Source: Candidatus Methylomirabilota bacterium
GTDB lineage: Bacteria; Methylomirabilota; Methylomirabilia; Rokubacteriales; CSP1-6
NCBI GenBank assembly: GCA_035936835.1
Contig: DASYVT010000023.1
Coordinates: 1-64,000 of the forward strand
Reading direction: 5' to 3'
Length of the DNA stretch: 64,000 nt
Below, one piece after another: positions 55,289-64,000 of the stretch. The translations under genes were made by a program, and so were the position numbers. Position 1 is the first letter of the stretch. The number at the start of each line of letters is the position of its first letter. Under the pieces are notes generated by a model. That model had not been told where the DNA came from. It ran no database searches and saw only the letters and a list, made by a program, of their open reading frames with translations.

Positions 55289-55983
55289 CTTGCCGACGCG
55301 ATCCCGTCATCACCATCGACGGCCCGGCCGGCGCGGGCAAGTCCACCACCGCCCGCGAGGTCGCCCGCCGGCTCGGGTTCAGGCTCGTGGACACTGGCGC
55401 GCTGTACCGCGCGTTGGCGTGGGCGCTCATGCAGGCGGGCGTGTCGCCGGAGGACGAGATCGGCGTCGGAGCGCTGCTGGCCCGGACGACCGTCGAGCTG
55501 GCCGACATGGGCGCCGGCGGGGGCACCAGCGGGCGCGTGCTGGTCAACGGCCGCGACGTCACCGCCGAGATCAGGACGCCCGAGATCGCCCTGACGACGT
55601 CGAGGCTGACGGCGCTCAGAGCGGTGCGCGACAAGATGACGCCGCTCCAGCGGAGCCTCGCGGCCGCCGGCGGGGTCGTCCTTGAGGGCCGGGACACGGG
55701 CAGCGTGGTCTGCCCCGACGCGGAGGTCAAGGTCTACCTGGACGCGGACCTTGCCGAGCGGGCCCGCCGCCGCCGCGACGAGCTGGCCGCGCGCGGCCTG
55801 CCCGCCGACTACGAAAGGGTGAAGGCGGAGGTCGCCTTGCGGGACCGCCAGGACATGGAGCGGGCGCTCGCGCCGCTCCGCAAGCCGCCGGGGGCCGTGA
55901 CGGTCGACTCGACGGCGCTCTCCCCGGAGGCGGTGGTTTTGCGGATCCTCGACGCGGTGGAGCAGGCGCGGTGCTGTACCTGA
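55285..55983 (+). CDS. cmk: Cytidylate kinase
   Basis: Cmk phosphorylates CMP and dCMP. The 232-residue P-loop kinase has ITIDGPAGAGKSTTAREVARRLGF, VDTGALYRALAWALMQAG, EGRDTGSVVCPDAEVKVYLDA and RDRQDMERALAPLRKPPGA. The start is GTG 55285, overlapping the aroA stop as GTGA. aroA-cmk-plsC-rpsA is a common bacterial order. Confidence 0.97.
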   Translation: MTCRRDPVITIDGPAGAGKSTTAREVARRLGFRLVDTGALYRALAWALMQAGVSPEDEIGVGALLARTTVELADMGAGGGTSGRVLVNGRDVTAEIRTPEIALTTSRLTALRAVRDKMTPLQRSLAAAGGVVLEGRDTGSVVCPDAEVKVYLDADLAERARRRRDELAARGLPADYERVKAEVALRDRQDMERALAPLRKPPGAVTVDSTALSPEAVVLRILDAVEQARCCT

Positions 55984-56603
55984 TCCTGAAGCCGCTGGTG
56001 GTGTTTCTGATGCGGGCGTGGTTCGGACTCCGCGTGAGAGGAGCGGAGCACATCCCGTCCTCGGGGCCTGCGCTCATCGTCTCGAACCATCAGAGCATTC
56101 TCGATCCGCCGGTAATCGGCGGGGCGGCGCGGCGCCAGATCTATTTCCTCGCGAAGGCGGAGCTGTTCCGGATCCCCCTCTTCGGGTGGTTGTTCCGGGC
56201 GCTCCACGCGCGGCCGGTGCGCCGCGAGGGCTCGGACCCGGGTGCGCTCAGAATAGCCGCGCTGTTGCTCGAACAAGGCAAGGCGCTCCTGGTCTTTCCG
56301 GAGGGGACGCGCAGCCTGGACGGCCGTCTTGGGGAAGGGAAGCCCGGTGTCGGGATGCTCGCGGTCACGAGCGGGGCGCCGGTGGTGCCCGCGTACGTCT
56401 CGGGCACCCTCGAGGCCCTGCCCAAGGGCGCGGTCTGGCCCCGGCGCAGCCAAGTGAGCGTGAGCTTCGGTCCCGCGTTACACTTCAAGGCCCCGATCGG
56501 TTCCGGCCGCAAGGAGCGCTACCGGGAGGCTACAGAGGAGATGATGCGCGGGATCGCGCAGTTGAAGGCGCAGAGCGCCACGACACGCTCCGGGGATCCT
56601 TAG
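55971..56603 (+). CDS. plsC: 1-acyl-sn-glycerol-3-phosphate acyltransferase
   Basis: The 210-residue membrane-associated enzyme makes phosphatidic acid. It has an N-terminal membrane helix (LYLILKPLVVFLMRAWFGL), the catalytic H-x4-D motif in SNHQSILDPP, the FPEGTRSLDG motif and VVPAYVSGT. The GTG start overlaps cmk by 13 bases. Substrate chain length and alternate roles in lipid A acylation cannot be excluded. Confidence 0.92.
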   Translation: MLYLILKPLVVFLMRAWFGLRVRGAEHIPSSGPALIVSNHQSILDPPVIGGAARRQIYFLAKAELFRIPLFGWLFRALHARPVRREGSDPGALRIAALLLEQGKALLVFPEGTRSLDGRLGEGKPGVGMLAVTSGAPVVPAYVSGTLEALPKGAVWPRRSQVSVSFGPALHFKAPIGSGRKERYREATEEMMRGIAQLKAQSATTRSGDP

Positions 56604-56610
56604 GAGTGTG

Positions 56611-56685
56611 GGGGGAGTACGGGGGCCATGTCGAGGCCCCCGTTGCTGGGGGAGTACGGGGGCCATCTCGGGGCCCCCGTTGCTG
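56611..56685 (+). repeat. Two tandem copies of a 37-bp hairpin-forming repeat before rpsA
   Basis: Copy 1 spans 56611-56648 and copy 2 56648-56685, each reading GGGGGAGTAC, an 8-base stem CGGGGGCC, a 7-base loop, the perfect complementary arm GGCCCCCG, then TTGCTG. The loops differ (ATGTCGA and ATCTCGG) while the stems are identical, as expected of a structure kept by pairing. A third, cut-off copy lies at 63970-64000. The hairpins follow the plsC stop and could also block or slow transcription. Confidence 0.9.
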
Positions 56686-56754
56686 AACGACGTCAGGGGC
56701 GGTCGCGAAGTCCGACGCCCCGGCGATATCCATCAAGGGAGGAAGCACCGCATT

Positions 56755-58470
56755 ATGGAGACGGAGAACCGGAAGGCGAAGCTCCTCGAGGGGGTGCAGG
56801 AGGAGGTGGCAGAGGCCCCCGAGGAGAGTATGGAGGATTGGTTCAACCGGGGCGTGGGCGACATCGAGGAAGGGGAGGTCGTCCGCGGCAGGGTCGTCGA
56901 GGTCCGCGACAGCGAAGTGCTCGTGGACATCGGCTACAAGAGCGAGGGGACTATCGCGATGGAGGAATTCCGCCACGCGGGCACCCTCCCGAAGGTCGGC
57001 GACGAGATCGAGGTCTACCTCGAGTCCAAGGAGGACAGCGAGGGGCTGATCGTCCTCAGCAAGGACAAGGCCGACAAGATCAAGGTCTGGGACGCCATCT
57101 CCAAGTCTCACGACAGCGGCACGCCCGTGGAAGGCAAGGTGGTCGAGGTCGTCAAGGGCGGGCTCTCGGTCGACGTGGGCGTCCGCGCCTTTCTGCCGGG
57201 CTCCCAGGTGGACCTGAGACCTGTTAAGAACCTCGCCTCGATGCTCGGCCAGATGATCCGCGCGAAGGTCATCAAGCTCAACCGGCGGCGAGGCAACGTC
57301 GTTCTGTCCCGGCGCGCGGTGCTCGAGGAGGAGCGCGAGGAGAAGCGGAAGCACACGCTCTCGGTGCTCTCGGAGGGCATGGTGCTCACGGGCGCCGTCA
57401 AGAACATCACCGACTACGGCGCCTTCATCGACCTGGGCGGGATCGACGGCCTCCTGCACGTGACCGACATGTCCTGGGGCAGGGTCGGACACCCGTCGGA
57501 GATCTTCCAGATCGGCGACCAGGTCGAGGTCGTCGTGCTGCACTTCGATCGCGAGACCGGGCGCGTCTCGCTTGGCTACAAGCAGAAGTCGTCCGACCCC
57601 TGGGCCGTCGTCGACGAGCGCTACCCCGTCGGCGCCAAGGCGCAGGGGCGGGTGGTGAGCCTGACCAATTACGGCGCCTTCGTCGAGCTCGAGCCCGGAG
57701 TCGAAGGGCTCGTGCACGTGTCCGAGATGTCGTGGACGCGCCGCGTGCGACACCCCTCGAAGCTCGTCAACGTCGGCGACATGGTGGACGTCATGGTGCT
57801 CGACGTGAACAAGGCCACCAAGCGCATCTCGCTCGGCATGAAGCAGGTCGAGGCCGACCCGTGGGCGACCATCGAGGAGCGCTACAAGCCGGGCGAGCGG
57901 GTCGAGGGCAAGGTGCGCAACCTGACCGACTTCGGCGCCTTCGTCGAGCTCGAGCCCGGCGTGGACGGCCTGCTGCACATCTCCGACATGTCCTGGACCC
58001 GCAATATCGGGCACCCGTCGGAGATCCTCAAGAAGGGGCAGTCCGTCGAGACGCAGATCCTCAACGTGGACAGGGACAACAAGCGAATCTCCCTGGGCCT
58101 CAAGCAGATCCAACCCGATCCGTGGGAATCTGTCTCCCAGCGCTATCCCATGGGCTCTCGCGTCACCGGCAAGATCGTGCGGCTGACCGACTTCGGCGCC
58201 TTCGTCGAGCTTGAGCCCGGCGTGGACGGGCTCCTCCACGTCTCGCAGATGTCGAGCCGTCCCATTGCCTCGCCCTCCGACCTCGTGAACGTGGGCGACG
58301 AGCTCACGCTGATGGTGATACGCGTCGATCCCAACGAGCGGCGCATAGGGCTCAGCCTCAAGGACCTGGCGGCGGCCATCCTGGAGGAGCCGTCGCAAGC
58401 GGATGCCCGCGGCCGCGGCAAGGGGCGGAAGCGGCGTGGCGGCGAGGACTTCGATGAGGATGAGGAGTAG
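56755..58470 (+). CDS. rpsA: 30S ribosomal protein S1
   Basis: S1 helps mRNA bind the ribosome. The 571-residue protein has six S1 domains at roughly 38-105, 118-186, 203-272, 288-358, 375-445 and 462-532; domains 3-6 carry the YGAF/FGAFVELEPGV RNA-binding pattern. The N terminus (1-35) is acidic and the tail is Lys/Arg then Asp/Glu-rich. ATG 56755 is chosen because GGGAGGAA lies about 10 bases upstream; the frame is open further upstream through the repeats, but that part is not S1-like. Confidence 0.97.
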   Translation: METENRKAKLLEGVQEEVAEAPEESMEDWFNRGVGDIEEGEVVRGRVVEVRDSEVLVDIGYKSEGTIAMEEFRHAGTLPKVGDEIEVYLESKEDSEGLIVLSKDKADKIKVWDAISKSHDSGTPVEGKVVEVVKGGLSVDVGVRAFLPGSQVDLRPVKNLASMLGQMIRAKVIKLNRRRGNVVLSRRAVLEEEREEKRKHTLSVLSEGMVLTGAVKNITDYGAFIDLGGIDGLLHVTDMSWGRVGHPSEIFQIGDQVEVVVLHFDRETGRVSLGYKQKSSDPWAVVDERYPVGAKAQGRVVSLTNYGAFVELEPGVEGLVHVSEMSWTRRVRHPSKLVNVGDMVDVMVLDVNKATKRISLGMKQVEADPWATIEERYKPGERVEGKVRNLTDFGAFVELEPGVDGLLHISDMSWTRNIGHPSEILKKGQSVETQILNVDRDNKRISLGLKQIQPDPWESVSQRYPMGSRVTGKIVRLTDFGAFVELEPGVDGLLHVSQMSSRPIASPSDLVNVGDELTLMVIRVDPNERRIGLSLKDLAAAILEEPSQADARGRGKGRKRRGGEDFDEDEE

Positions 58471-60310: not shown

Positions 60311-62934
60311 GGGACCCCTCGGCCGAGCTGTCGCCCCAGCTGTCACCCCAGCTGTCACCCATGATGTTGCAGTACCGGGAGCTGAAGCGGCGCTACCCGG
60401 ACTACGTGCTGCTCTTCCGCCTCGGTGACTTCTACGAGATGTTCTTCGAGGACGCCCACGAGGGCGCCAAACTGCTGCAGATCACGCTGACCTCACGGCA
60501 AAAGGGAGAGGGCGCCATTCCGATGGCCGGTATCCCGCACCATGCCGCGGACGGCTACATCGCGCGGCTGATACGGGCCGGACGGAAGGTGGCCGTGTGC
60601 GAGCAGATGGAAGCGCCGGCCAAGGGCAAGAAGCTCGTCCGGCGAGAGGTCGTCCGGGTCATCACGCCCGGTACGCTCACCGACACCCAGTATCTCGACG
60701 GGGCCGCGAACAATTACCTCCTGGCCGTCCACAGGGCGGGCGCCGGCGCCGGCCGGACGCTGGGCGCCGCCCTGGTGGACGTTTCCACGGGCGAGTTCTG
60801 GGTCGGTGAAGCCGCGGGCGACGGAGCGGCGCTGCTCGACGCGGCCCTCCTGCGGCGGCCCGCCGAGTGCCTCGTGGCTGGGGAAGAAGACCAGGATCTC
60901 GCCGCCCGGCTCGCCGCCGCAGGGATCATGGTGACCCGCGGGGAGCCCTCGTGGTTCGCGCTGCGCCAGGCGCGTGAGCGGCTCGCGGCGCACTTCCGTG
61001 TTCACTCGCTCGACAGCCTGGGCGTGGGCGAGATGGGCGCCGGGCTTCAGGCCTCGGGCGCTGCCCTCGCGTATCTGCGGGAGACGCAGGGCGAGGCGCT
61101 CGGCCACCTCGCCCGTCTCCAGCGCCTGATCCCGGGCGACGCCATGGTGCTCGATCCCACCGCCGTCGCCACGCTCGAGCTCTTCGAGAACGCCCAGGAA
61201 GGGACCCTGCGCGGCTCTCTCCTTGCGACCCTCGACCGGACTCGGACGCCGATGGGCGCACGAACCCTCCGCCAGTGGCTGCTGCGGCCGCTTCTGGACA
61301 CGGGCGCCATCTCGCGACGCCAGGATGCCGTCGCGGCGCTGGTCGCGGAGCCGCAGCAGCGGGCCGCCGTGCGGAAGCAGATCCACGGCATCGGCGACCT
61401 CGAGCGGCTCTCGAGCCGGGCCGCCCTCGGCGTCGCGCATGCGCGGGATCTGACGGGACTCCGTACCTTTCTCGGTTCCCTCCCGGCTGTCCGCGAGGCG
61501 CTCGGCGGACTCTCAGCGCCACTCCTCGCTGAGGTGGGGGAGGAGATCGCGGCCCTGCCGGCGCTGCAGAAGCTGCTCGTGGACGCTCTCGAGGACGAGC
61601 CGCCGCTGACGCTCCGGGAGGGCGGCCTGGTCCGGGAGATCTGGAGCGCCGATCTCGGCGAGATCAAGCGCGGGGCGCGGGAGGCGCGAGAGTGGATCGC
61701 TGCCCTGGAGGGACGTGAGCGGGAGCGCACGGGCATCCCCACGCTCCGCGTGCGCTTCAACCGCGTCTTCGGCTACGGCATCGAGGTGAGCAACGCGCAC
61801 GTGGCTAAGGTGCCCGGCGAGTACATACGGCGCCAGACCCTGGTGGGCGCCGAGCGGTACGTCACCGTCGCGCTCAAGGAGTACGAAGGCCGCGTGCTTG
61901 GGGCTGAGGAGCGGATGGCCAAGCTCGAGCTGGAGCTCTTCCAGGAGGTCCGTGCCGCCGTCGCGGCCGAGGCGTCGGCGCTGCTCCGAACGGCACGGGC
62001 GGTCGGGACGCTGGACGCGCTCGCATCGCTCGGCGAGATCGCCCACGAGCGTGGGTACGTGAGGCCGCAGGTCGACGACGGCCGAATGCTCGACATCGCG
62101 GAGGGCCGCCATCCCGTGCTCGAGTCGGGCGGCGAGCGCCCCTTCACGCCCAACGACCTCCACCTCGACCCCGACCGCGAGCAGGTGATGATTCTGACGG
62201 GCCCCAACATGAGCGGCAAGAGCGTGTTCATGCGCCAAGCGGCGCTGCTGGTGATCCTGGCCCAGATGGGCAGCTTCGTCCCGGCGCGGTCGGCCCGGAT
62301 CGGGGTCGTGGACCGGATCCTGACCCGCGTCGGGGCCCAGGACAACCTCGCGCGGGGCCAGAGTACTTTTCTCGTGGAAATGGTCGAGACCGCGAGCATC
62401 CTGCACAACGCCACGGAACGAACTCTGGTTCTACTTGACGAGGTGGGGCGCGGCACCTCGACCTTCGACGGGCTCGCCATCGCCTGGGCCGTGACCGAGG
62501 AGCTTCACGACCGCGGTCGCGGCGCGAAGGTGCTCTTCGCCACTCATTACCACGAGCTCACCGCCCTCGCCGATCGGCTCGCGCGCGTCCGCAACTTCCA
62601 CGTCGCCGTCAAGGAATGGAACGACGAGATCATCTTCCTTCACAAGGTCGGGCCCGGCGGGACGGACCGGTCCTACGGCATCCAGGTCGCCCGCCTCGCC
62701 GGCTTGCCGAAGGCCGTCATCGCGCGCGCGCGGGAAATCCTCGCCGACCTCAGCCAGAATCCCGGCGCGCTCGTCCCGGGTCAGCCCGAGCCGACCCCGC
62801 AGCTCGGTCTTTTCCCGCATACCGCCAACCCCGTGCTCAAGGAGCTGGGCGCGCTCGACGTCTCGTCCCTCACACCGCTGGAGGCGCTCAACCTCCTGGC
62901 CGAGTGGCAGCGGCGTCTCAAGGCGCAGCCGTGA
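60307..62934 (+). CDS. mutS: DNA mismatch repair protein MutS
   Basis: MutS recognises base mismatches. The 875-residue protein has the mismatch-binding F-x-E motif in LGDFYEMFFEDAH, a connector and core-clamp region, and the ATPase with Walker A GPNMSGKSVFMRQAALLV, LLDEVGRGTSTFDGLA (Walker B) and THYHELTALAD. The N-terminal tail holds a LSPQLSPQLSP repeat from three 12-bp units (60325-60360). The GTG start overlaps the HIT stop; ATG 60361 is an alternative that would omit the repeat. mutL follows by GTGA overlap. Confidence 0.97.
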   Translation: MRDPSAELSPQLSPQLSPMMLQYRELKRRYPDYVLLFRLGDFYEMFFEDAHEGAKLLQITLTSRQKGEGAIPMAGIPHHAADGYIARLIRAGRKVAVCEQMEAPAKGKKLVRREVVRVITPGTLTDTQYLDGAANNYLLAVHRAGAGAGRTLGAALVDVSTGEFWVGEAAGDGAALLDAALLRRPAECLVAGEEDQDLAARLAAAGIMVTRGEPSWFALRQARERLAAHFRVHSLDSLGVGEMGAGLQASGAALAYLRETQGEALGHLARLQRLIPGDAMVLDPTAVATLELFENAQEGTLRGSLLATLDRTRTPMGARTLRQWLLRPLLDTGAISRRQDAVAALVAEPQQRAAVRKQIHGIGDLERLSSRAALGVAHARDLTGLRTFLGSLPAVREALGGLSAPLLAEVGEEIAALPALQKLLVDALEDEPPLTLREGGLVREIWSADLGEIKRGAREAREWIAALEGRERERTGIPTLRVRFNRVFGYGIEVSNAHVAKVPGEYIRRQTLVGAERYVTVALKEYEGRVLGAEERMAKLELELFQEVRAAVAAEASALLRTARAVGTLDALASLGEIAHERGYVRPQVDDGRMLDIAEGRHPVLESGGERPFTPNDLHLDPDREQVMILTGPNMSGKSVFMRQAALLVILAQMGSFVPARSARIGVVDRILTRVGAQDNLARGQSTFLVEMVETASILHNATERTLVLLDEVGRGTSTFDGLAIAWAVTEELHDRGRGAKVLFATHYHELTALADRLARVRNFHVAVKEWNDEIIFLHKVGPGGTDRSYGIQVARLAGLPKAVIARAREILADLSQNPGALVPGQPEPTPQLGLFPHTANPVLKELGALDVSSLTPLEALNLLAEWQRRLKAQP
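60325..60360 (+). repeat. Three 12-bp in-frame tandem units in the mutS N terminus
   Basis: Units at 60325-60336, 60337-60348 and 60349-60360; the last two are identical (CAGCTGTCACCC) and the first differs at two bases. They encode LSPQLSPQLSP, upstream of the conserved mismatch-binding domain. Confidence 0.9.
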
Positions 62935-64000
62935 ACCCCATCCGCCTCCTGCCCGATCACCTCATCAACAAGATCGCCGCGGGCGAGGTCGTGGAGCGGC
63001 CGGCGTCGGTGGTCAAGGAGCTCGTTGAGAACGCGATAGACGCCGGCGGGCGTGTCATCACGGTGGAGCTGAAAGACGCGGGGCGGCAGCTCATCCGGGT
63101 CACCGATGATGGCACCGGCATGACGCGCGCCGACGTCGACATGGCGCTCCGGCGCCACGCGACGTCGAAGATCTCCGACGAGGGCGACCTGGCGGCCATC
63201 GCGACCCTGGGCTTTCGCGGCGAGGCCCTGCCGGCCATCTGCGCCGTTAGCCGTTTCGAGATCCTCTCATGCCCCCGCGGCGGCGCCGTGGGCACTCTCG
63301 TGCGCGGGGCGGGAGGAACGGTCGTCGATCGCCTCGAGGTCGAGGCCGCGCCCGGCACGTCCGTCGAGATCCAGGATCTCTTCTTCAACACGCCGGCGCG
63401 GCTCAAGTTTCTCCGGAGCGCGCCGGCCGAGCTGGCCTTCATCCTCCGGCTCCTGCAGGGCATCGCCCTCGCGCGGCCGGACCTGCATCTCCGCGCACTC
63501 CACCACGGCAAGGCCGTGTTGACGGCGCCGGCGGCGGCAACTCTGCGGGCCCGCGTCGGCGCCGTCTTGGGTTTCGAGACAGCGGAGGCGATGCTCGACG
63601 TGGATCACACGCAGGGGAATGTGCACGTCACCGGGCTCGCGGCACCGCCACAGCGGGCGCGCGGCAACCGCGACGAGATCACCCTCATCGTCAACGGCCG
63701 TCCGGTCCGTGATACGGCGCTAGCCCAGGGTCTGATCGAGGCCTACCGGCCCATGCTCCCGCGCCACCAATTCCCGGTGGCGGCGCTCCTGATCGACCTG
63801 CCCCTGCCTGAAGTCGACGTCAACGTCCACCCGACCAAGGCCTGGGTCCGCTTCCGCTCGCCGCGGCTGGTGCAGGAGGCAGTGTTCCGCGCCGTCCAGG
63901 ACGCTCTCCGCTCGCAGCGCGTCGTCCAACCCCAGCAAGGCCTTGGCGCGCCCGGCCGACCTGCTGACTGGGGGAGTACGGGGACCATGTCTGGGCCCCC
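62931..64000 (+). CDS. mutL: DNA mismatch repair protein MutL, N-terminal part (3' truncated by the window)
   Basis: MutL links MutS to strand excision. The visible 356 codons hold the GHKL ATPase domain: NKIAAGEVVERPASVVKELV, ENAIDAGG (Bergerat fold), GFRGEALPAICAV, DLFFNTPARLKFL, and the transducer domain to RLVQEAVFRAVQDAL at about 320. From about 340 it enters the Pro/Gln-rich interdomain linker, where bases 63970-64000 belong to the hairpin repeat also found before rpsA. The C-terminal dimerisation domain lies beyond the window. The start is GTG 62931, overlapping mutS. Confidence 0.96.
   Translation, partial: MNPIRLLPDHLINKIAAGEVVERPASVVKELVENAIDAGGRVITVELKDAGRQLIRVTDDGTGMTRADVDMALRRHATSKISDEGDLAAIATLGFRGEALPAICAVSRFEILSCPRGGAVGTLVRGAGGTVVDRLEVEAAPGTSVEIQDLFFNTPARLKFLRSAPAELAFILRLLQGIALARPDLHLRALHHGKAVLTAPAAATLRARVGAVLGFETAEAMLDVDHTQGNVHVTGLAAPPQRARGNRDEITLIVNGRPVRDTALAQGLIEAYRPMLPRHQFPVAALLIDLPLPEVDVNVHPTKAWVRFRSPRLVQEAVFRAVQDALRSQRVVQPQQGLGAPGRPADWGSTGTMSGP
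63970..64000 (+). repeat. Third copy of the 37-bp hairpin repeat, inside the mutL linker (cut by the window end)
   Basis: GGGGGAGTAC (63970-63979) is followed by GGGGACC, a 7-base loop ATGTCTG and GGCCCCC, with one A-C mismatch relative to the perfect stem of the copies at 56611-56685. In the mutL frame it is translated as WGSTGTMSGP. The rest of the unit, expected to read G then TTGCTG, is outside the window. Confidence 0.8.

Follow-up and report, generated by a model that had tools for sequence, protein, structure and literature searches.

A dispersed palindromic repeat, probably REP-like, read in frame through the MutL linker of a Candidatus Methylomirabilota bacterium

How does a hairpin sequence that lies twice in non-coding DNA before rpsA come to stand a third time inside mutL? 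The question is raised by the window studied here, a 64,000-nucleotide stretch of DNA taken as a whole, from the genome of a Candidatus Methylomirabilota bacterium (4.1 Mb, 236 contigs; hereafter G000, its congeners being G001 to G004). A first-pass annotation had read the sequence as a small dispersed element, possibly spreading in this genome. We consider it likely that the unit belongs to a family of REP-like, non-autonomous dispersed palindromes that is specific to a single family of Candidatus Rokubacteria. The hosts are uncultured soil and groundwater bacteria.

The repeat unit and its copies

A search for GGGGGAGTACGGGGNCCATNTCNNGGCCCC allowing up to 3 mismatches hit the window three times, always on the + strand (56611, 56648, 63970), against 0.00 expected from 100 dinucleotide shuffles, which bears out the reported recurrence in mutL of the unit upstream of rpsA. 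Genome-wide, a pattern search found 7 full copies at 6 sites in G000, with 0 for the reversed control pattern, and a covariance model made from 47 units recovered the same 7 copies at E<=0.01; a half copy upstream of ruvA comes in addition. The unit had been given a length of 37 bp, a figure that in fact reflects the spacing between the two copies on the rpsA side; the true length is 43-44 nt. Copy 1 (56610-56646, +; pattern, covariance model) starts 6 nt past the stop codon of an acyltransferase-like gene (55971-56603, +; plsC-type by eye, called from its reading frame only) and is fused head-to-tail with copy 2 (56647-56690, +; pattern, model E 9.9e-10), a complete 44-nt unit with the rpsA start 64 nt downstream (56755-58470, +; frame from a codon-based caller, name from the first-pass annotation). 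Copy 3 (63969-64012, +; pattern, sequence, covariance model) lies within mutL (62931-64000 and on to about 64634, +; 567 aa) and, since 12 of its bases lie beyond 64000, is cut by the window edge.

The consensus reads [T]GGGGGAGTRC, followed by a stem GGGGGCC/GGCCCCC of 7 bp that encloses the 7-nt loop ATNTCNN, and then GYTNNNRAATGA. Information content, taken over 22 sites of the genus that were picked to be non-orthologous (L010:7764 among them probably matches by chance), stays high around the stem between -11 and +32 and falls sharply beyond, and the unit therefore has discrete edges. Pairing is also evident, with 97.2% of stem cells paired and a covariation score of 0.217, a value reached in 0 of 500 shuffles and with none of the slid partners. 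The outer stem pairs covary family-wide by A-U/U-A/G-C and C-G/G-C/U-A exchanges with both sides changed; because these changes follow few lineages, few of them are independent. Folding energies of the rpsA-side copies are near -22.5 kcal/mol (z -1.8 to -1.9 relative to shuffles); in the mutL copy one stem pair is mismatched (GGGGACC), and its fold, in the sequence ending at the window edge, is not better than that of shuffles (z 0.41). Beyond the stem the unit has no terminal inverted repeat. Openness in all six reading frames was considered as a special trait of the unit and rejected, as 37% of random 37-mers of the window are equally open.

The copy within mutL and other in-frame copies

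The annotation had placed the third copy in frame within the inter-domain linker of MutL, and this position is confirmed. The unit forms codons 347-361 and is read as WGSTGTMSGPPFPNN, in a frame that stays open to 567 aa; it falls behind the ATPase (PF13589/PF02518), between PF01119, which ends at residue 326, and the PF08676 dimerisation domain, which starts at 382, and AlphaFold gives pLDDT <50 for linker residues 335-372. Together with the 7 copies at 6 sites, the open frame and the disordered linker support the earlier description of a small dispersed element that the linker tolerates. The unit adds about 15 Gly/Pro/Ser-rich residues to MutL, probably with a near neutral effect. That a change of 15 residues could be tolerated agrees with E. 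coli, where shortening of the MutL linker by 40% was without a mutator phenotype (PMC6902014).

The MutL proteins of G003 (95% identical to that of G000) and G002 (91%) both hold an inverted unit at the same place, and G003 mutL retains besides it TGTCTGGGCCGCCGTTCCCAAACAA, the right half of the forward copy. The unit is absent from MutL of G001 (76%), G004 (75%) and all other genera read. Judged from these alignments, the most likely history would begin with a forward copy in an ancestor shared by G000, G002 and G003; a second copy, inverted, would then have arisen in the G002/G003 line or been lost in G000. Whether or not it holds the unit, the linker is about equally long, and a simple clean insertion is therefore not shown. 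The comparison that the annotation had proposed, a genome-wide count together with the mutL linker of relatives, gave a divided answer: the seven copies and the two congeners without the unit speak for an element, the inverted copies in two sister species and the equal linker lengths against a clean insertion.

Besides MutL, in-frame units were found in two other inter-domain linkers, of an ABC exporter and of an AtuA-like protein, and unit presence differs between species at the mutL and ABC exporter genes. The ABC exporter linker (PF00664-PF00005) has a single unit in G003 and two or three units, nested and degenerate, in G002, but a full unit in neither G000 (94% identical) nor G001; the net gain of about 11 residues in G003 is the only net gain among these linkers. 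At the position of the G003 right half, the G000 exporter reads CACCCCCGCTCCTTACCGG, which may be a right-half remnant of the unit. In the AtuA-like linker (PF07287-PF23544) the hairpin is perfect in G000 and has drifted in the G003 ortholog, and most unit-free relatives are just one residue shorter there. In G004, two units lie at the C-terminal end of a gene that looks hyuB-like by eye. As a side observation, G000 has two closely similar ABC exporter genes (C138:117-1847 and C131:10694-12007), with 94% and 92% identity to the protein of G003; for the second gene the match covers only residues 2-450.

Distribution and gene boundaries

In a species-level genome collection, exact matches were confined to Candidatus Rokuibacteriota MAGs. 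With the covariance model at E<=1e-4, units were detected in 47 of the 57 genomes from one Rokubacteria family, as against 0 of 38 others in the phylum. Each congener has 6-12 copies, reversed controls having none, and in the family as a whole copy number ranges from 0 to >60 per genome, counts near 60-66 being lower bounds (at least 60). The sister genera have a second hairpin upstream, CGAG..CCCGG-loop-CCGGG..CGAGCG, and with it a two-hairpin unit of about 85 nt (L087, L091, L093, L188-L207), which forms tandem arrays with a period of 88-91 nt and most often adjoins gene 3' ends; the second hairpin is also changed on both sides of its pairs. Viral contigs searched with two exact patterns for phage carriage gave no match, and a literature search on Rokubacteria repeats found nothing relevant.

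Most copies lie outside called genes (29/35 in this genus, 28/31 in G029, 23/28 in G034 and 37/39 in a mixed set), with gene positions from a simple codon-usage caller and counts that include tandem neighbours and some orthologs. Several sites are common to different species: ruvC-ruvA (G000-G003), an alcohol dehydrogenase gene (G000, G002, G003), trpS and its neighbour (G002-G004), rpsA (G000, G002) and the 3' side of frr (G000, G004), most of these genes being named by eye from translations. Because there are only 6 sites in G000 and most copies, shared with orthologous loci of other species, are old, the suggestion that the element is spreading in this genome is unsupported, and evidence of recent movement is absent. 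Between species, identity at shared sites other than rpsA (where just 7 unit positions align, too few for use) is 93-100% in the unit, 56-100% in the left-adjoining DNA and 80-98% in the coding DNA on the right; at the ruvA site of G000 and G001, 41/44 positions of the unit are identical as against 51/80 of the adjoining non-coding DNA. The number of copies in an array also differs between species, two versus one at rpsA and one versus two at the alcohol dehydrogenase site, and units have therefore been added or removed in tandem.

In this genus, the right end of the unit often carries a start codon, and its terminal AATGA contains that of ruvA, of the alcohol dehydrogenase gene and of the gene after trpS (L009, L010, L113, L118, L122). 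In sister genera, the right end mostly lies within about 15 nt of a gene boundary, usually an opposite-strand stop codon (17/18 mixed-genus loci, 10/14 in G029). The intergenic copies would probably act in mRNA as gene-junction hairpins. Reading of RuvC through the units was considered and rejected: the open frame there is not that of RuvC, and G001 RuvC stops 22 nt before the first unit. The ruvC-ruvA gap also holds tandem truncated half units (GGGGGAGTACGGGGGCCAT plus spacer), in a longer array in G003 (L120) than in G000 (L010). Upstream of a gatC-like gene of G004 (L126), units stand about 103 nt apart, and the spacer has a candidate hairpin (CTGTCGCCGGCG...).

Known repeats, rival explanations and mode of copying

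REPs in general (PMC3733652, PMC12306157) are, like the unit, short dispersed palindromes that lie mostly between genes near gene ends, in tandem groups and with some intragenic copies, including in DNA-repair genes and linkers; the broad definition of a REP (short, palindromic, similar, repeated, mostly extragenic) describes the unit. It differs in lacking a GTAG or CGTC tag, in its 7-nt loop with a fixed ATNTC, in head-to-tail tandems where REPs form HH/TT dimers, in its few copies in this genus and in the second paired hairpin of the sister genera. None of the 47 aligned units has GTAG (heads are AGTAC, AGTGC, GTTG, GTAT and similar), and the repeat-flanked RAYT gene of the GTAG-tagged superfamily was seen neither in G000 nor at the Y1_Tnp loci of relatives. 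For the CGTC-tagged superfamily (CGTC tag, stem of 8-9 bp, loop of 4-5 nt, CCA tail), the unit stem, counted as 9 pairs in this comparison, would fit, but the 7-nt loop does not and no CGTC is found at unit ends. Because the tags are absent and no RAYT association was seen, membership in both superfamilies fails; the likeness to REPs in general stands, and the family looks like a new REP branch. The annotation had drawn a parallel to the RPEs of Rickettsia (RPE-1 to -7; PMC3767692, PMC2229807), which holds as an analogy: both are palindromic and lie in frame within coding sequences, at solvent-exposed sites in RPEs and in the MutL, ABC and AtuA linkers here, the first disordered in its model. 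It does not hold as kinship: RPEs measure 105-146 bp and have terminal inverted repeats (PMC2229807), and RPE-4 and -6 are of the CGTC type (PMC3733652), a tag that the unit lacks; no sequence kinship was shown, and the REP class fits better.

Could the mutL sequence be a chance resemblance? The linker is highly variable and fast-evolving, and the copy has a broken stem pair, but with 0.00 matches expected, the whole 44-nt unit matched (model E 2.4e-8) and full copies at the same mutL place in two sister species, this is extremely improbable. The unit might instead be chiefly a functional RNA, a 3'-end or terminator hairpin in some genera and a translation-junction hairpin in others, selected at gene boundaries, with the mutL copy a stray. 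The gene-boundary positions described above, the start codons inside AATGA, the pairs changed on both sides in both hairpins and the better conservation of the unit than of its flanks argue for it. Yet copy number varies from none to more than 60 within one family, orientation and gene side vary between genera, and tandem arrays, half copies and copies within coding sequence occur; moreover, the U tract after the hairpin is absent and Rfam, at its gathering score, gave 0 matches in 10 loci. We regard such a primary role as unlikely.

A narrower form of the preferred explanation, in which a RAYT would have driven the family and its transposase was then lost from G000 and others, is likewise doubtful. 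It agrees with the anatomy, a short unpaired head and an imperfect palindrome, and with single Y1_Tnp genes in G001, G003 and G034; REPINs and RAYT-mobilised REPs (PMC3116915, PMC8266576) are also non-autonomous hairpin DNA. However, none of these Y1_Tnp genes has a unit beside it, GTAG is absent from all aligned units, and PF01797 (Y1_Tnp) had no match in G000, G002, G004 or in any of six genomes that carry some 60 copies or more. The abundance of a REP-like repeat without a detected Y1 transposase bears on how such repeats spread.

Under the REP-like reading, a discrete 43-44 nt unit would have been copied in the past to scattered sites, most likely by an enzyme that, like REP transposases, works on hairpins of single-stranded DNA. 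Selection would have cleared harmful insertions, the survivors standing in intergenic gaps and flexible protein linkers, and in mutL the forward copy would be read through the disordered linker with little effect. Counting against this reading, neither a mobiliser (PF01797) beside the unit nor a clean empty site was found, and the linkers of MutL and AtuA have about the same length whether or not they hold the unit. A more extended proposal is tentative, though possible: a new REP-like superfamily of one uncultured bacterial family, whose ancestral unit of about 85 nt had two hairpins and was copied by some enzyme that is not a Y1/RAYT transposase, partly co-opted as gene-boundary RNA and repeatedly captured in frame in linkers including that of MutL. 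REPs occur within DNA-repair genes, where they have been proposed both to be tolerated in flexible linkers and to create mutator strains (PMC3733652). With MutL copies of both orientations spread over three close species, and two further species lacking them, this genus offers a natural test of the mutator proposal.
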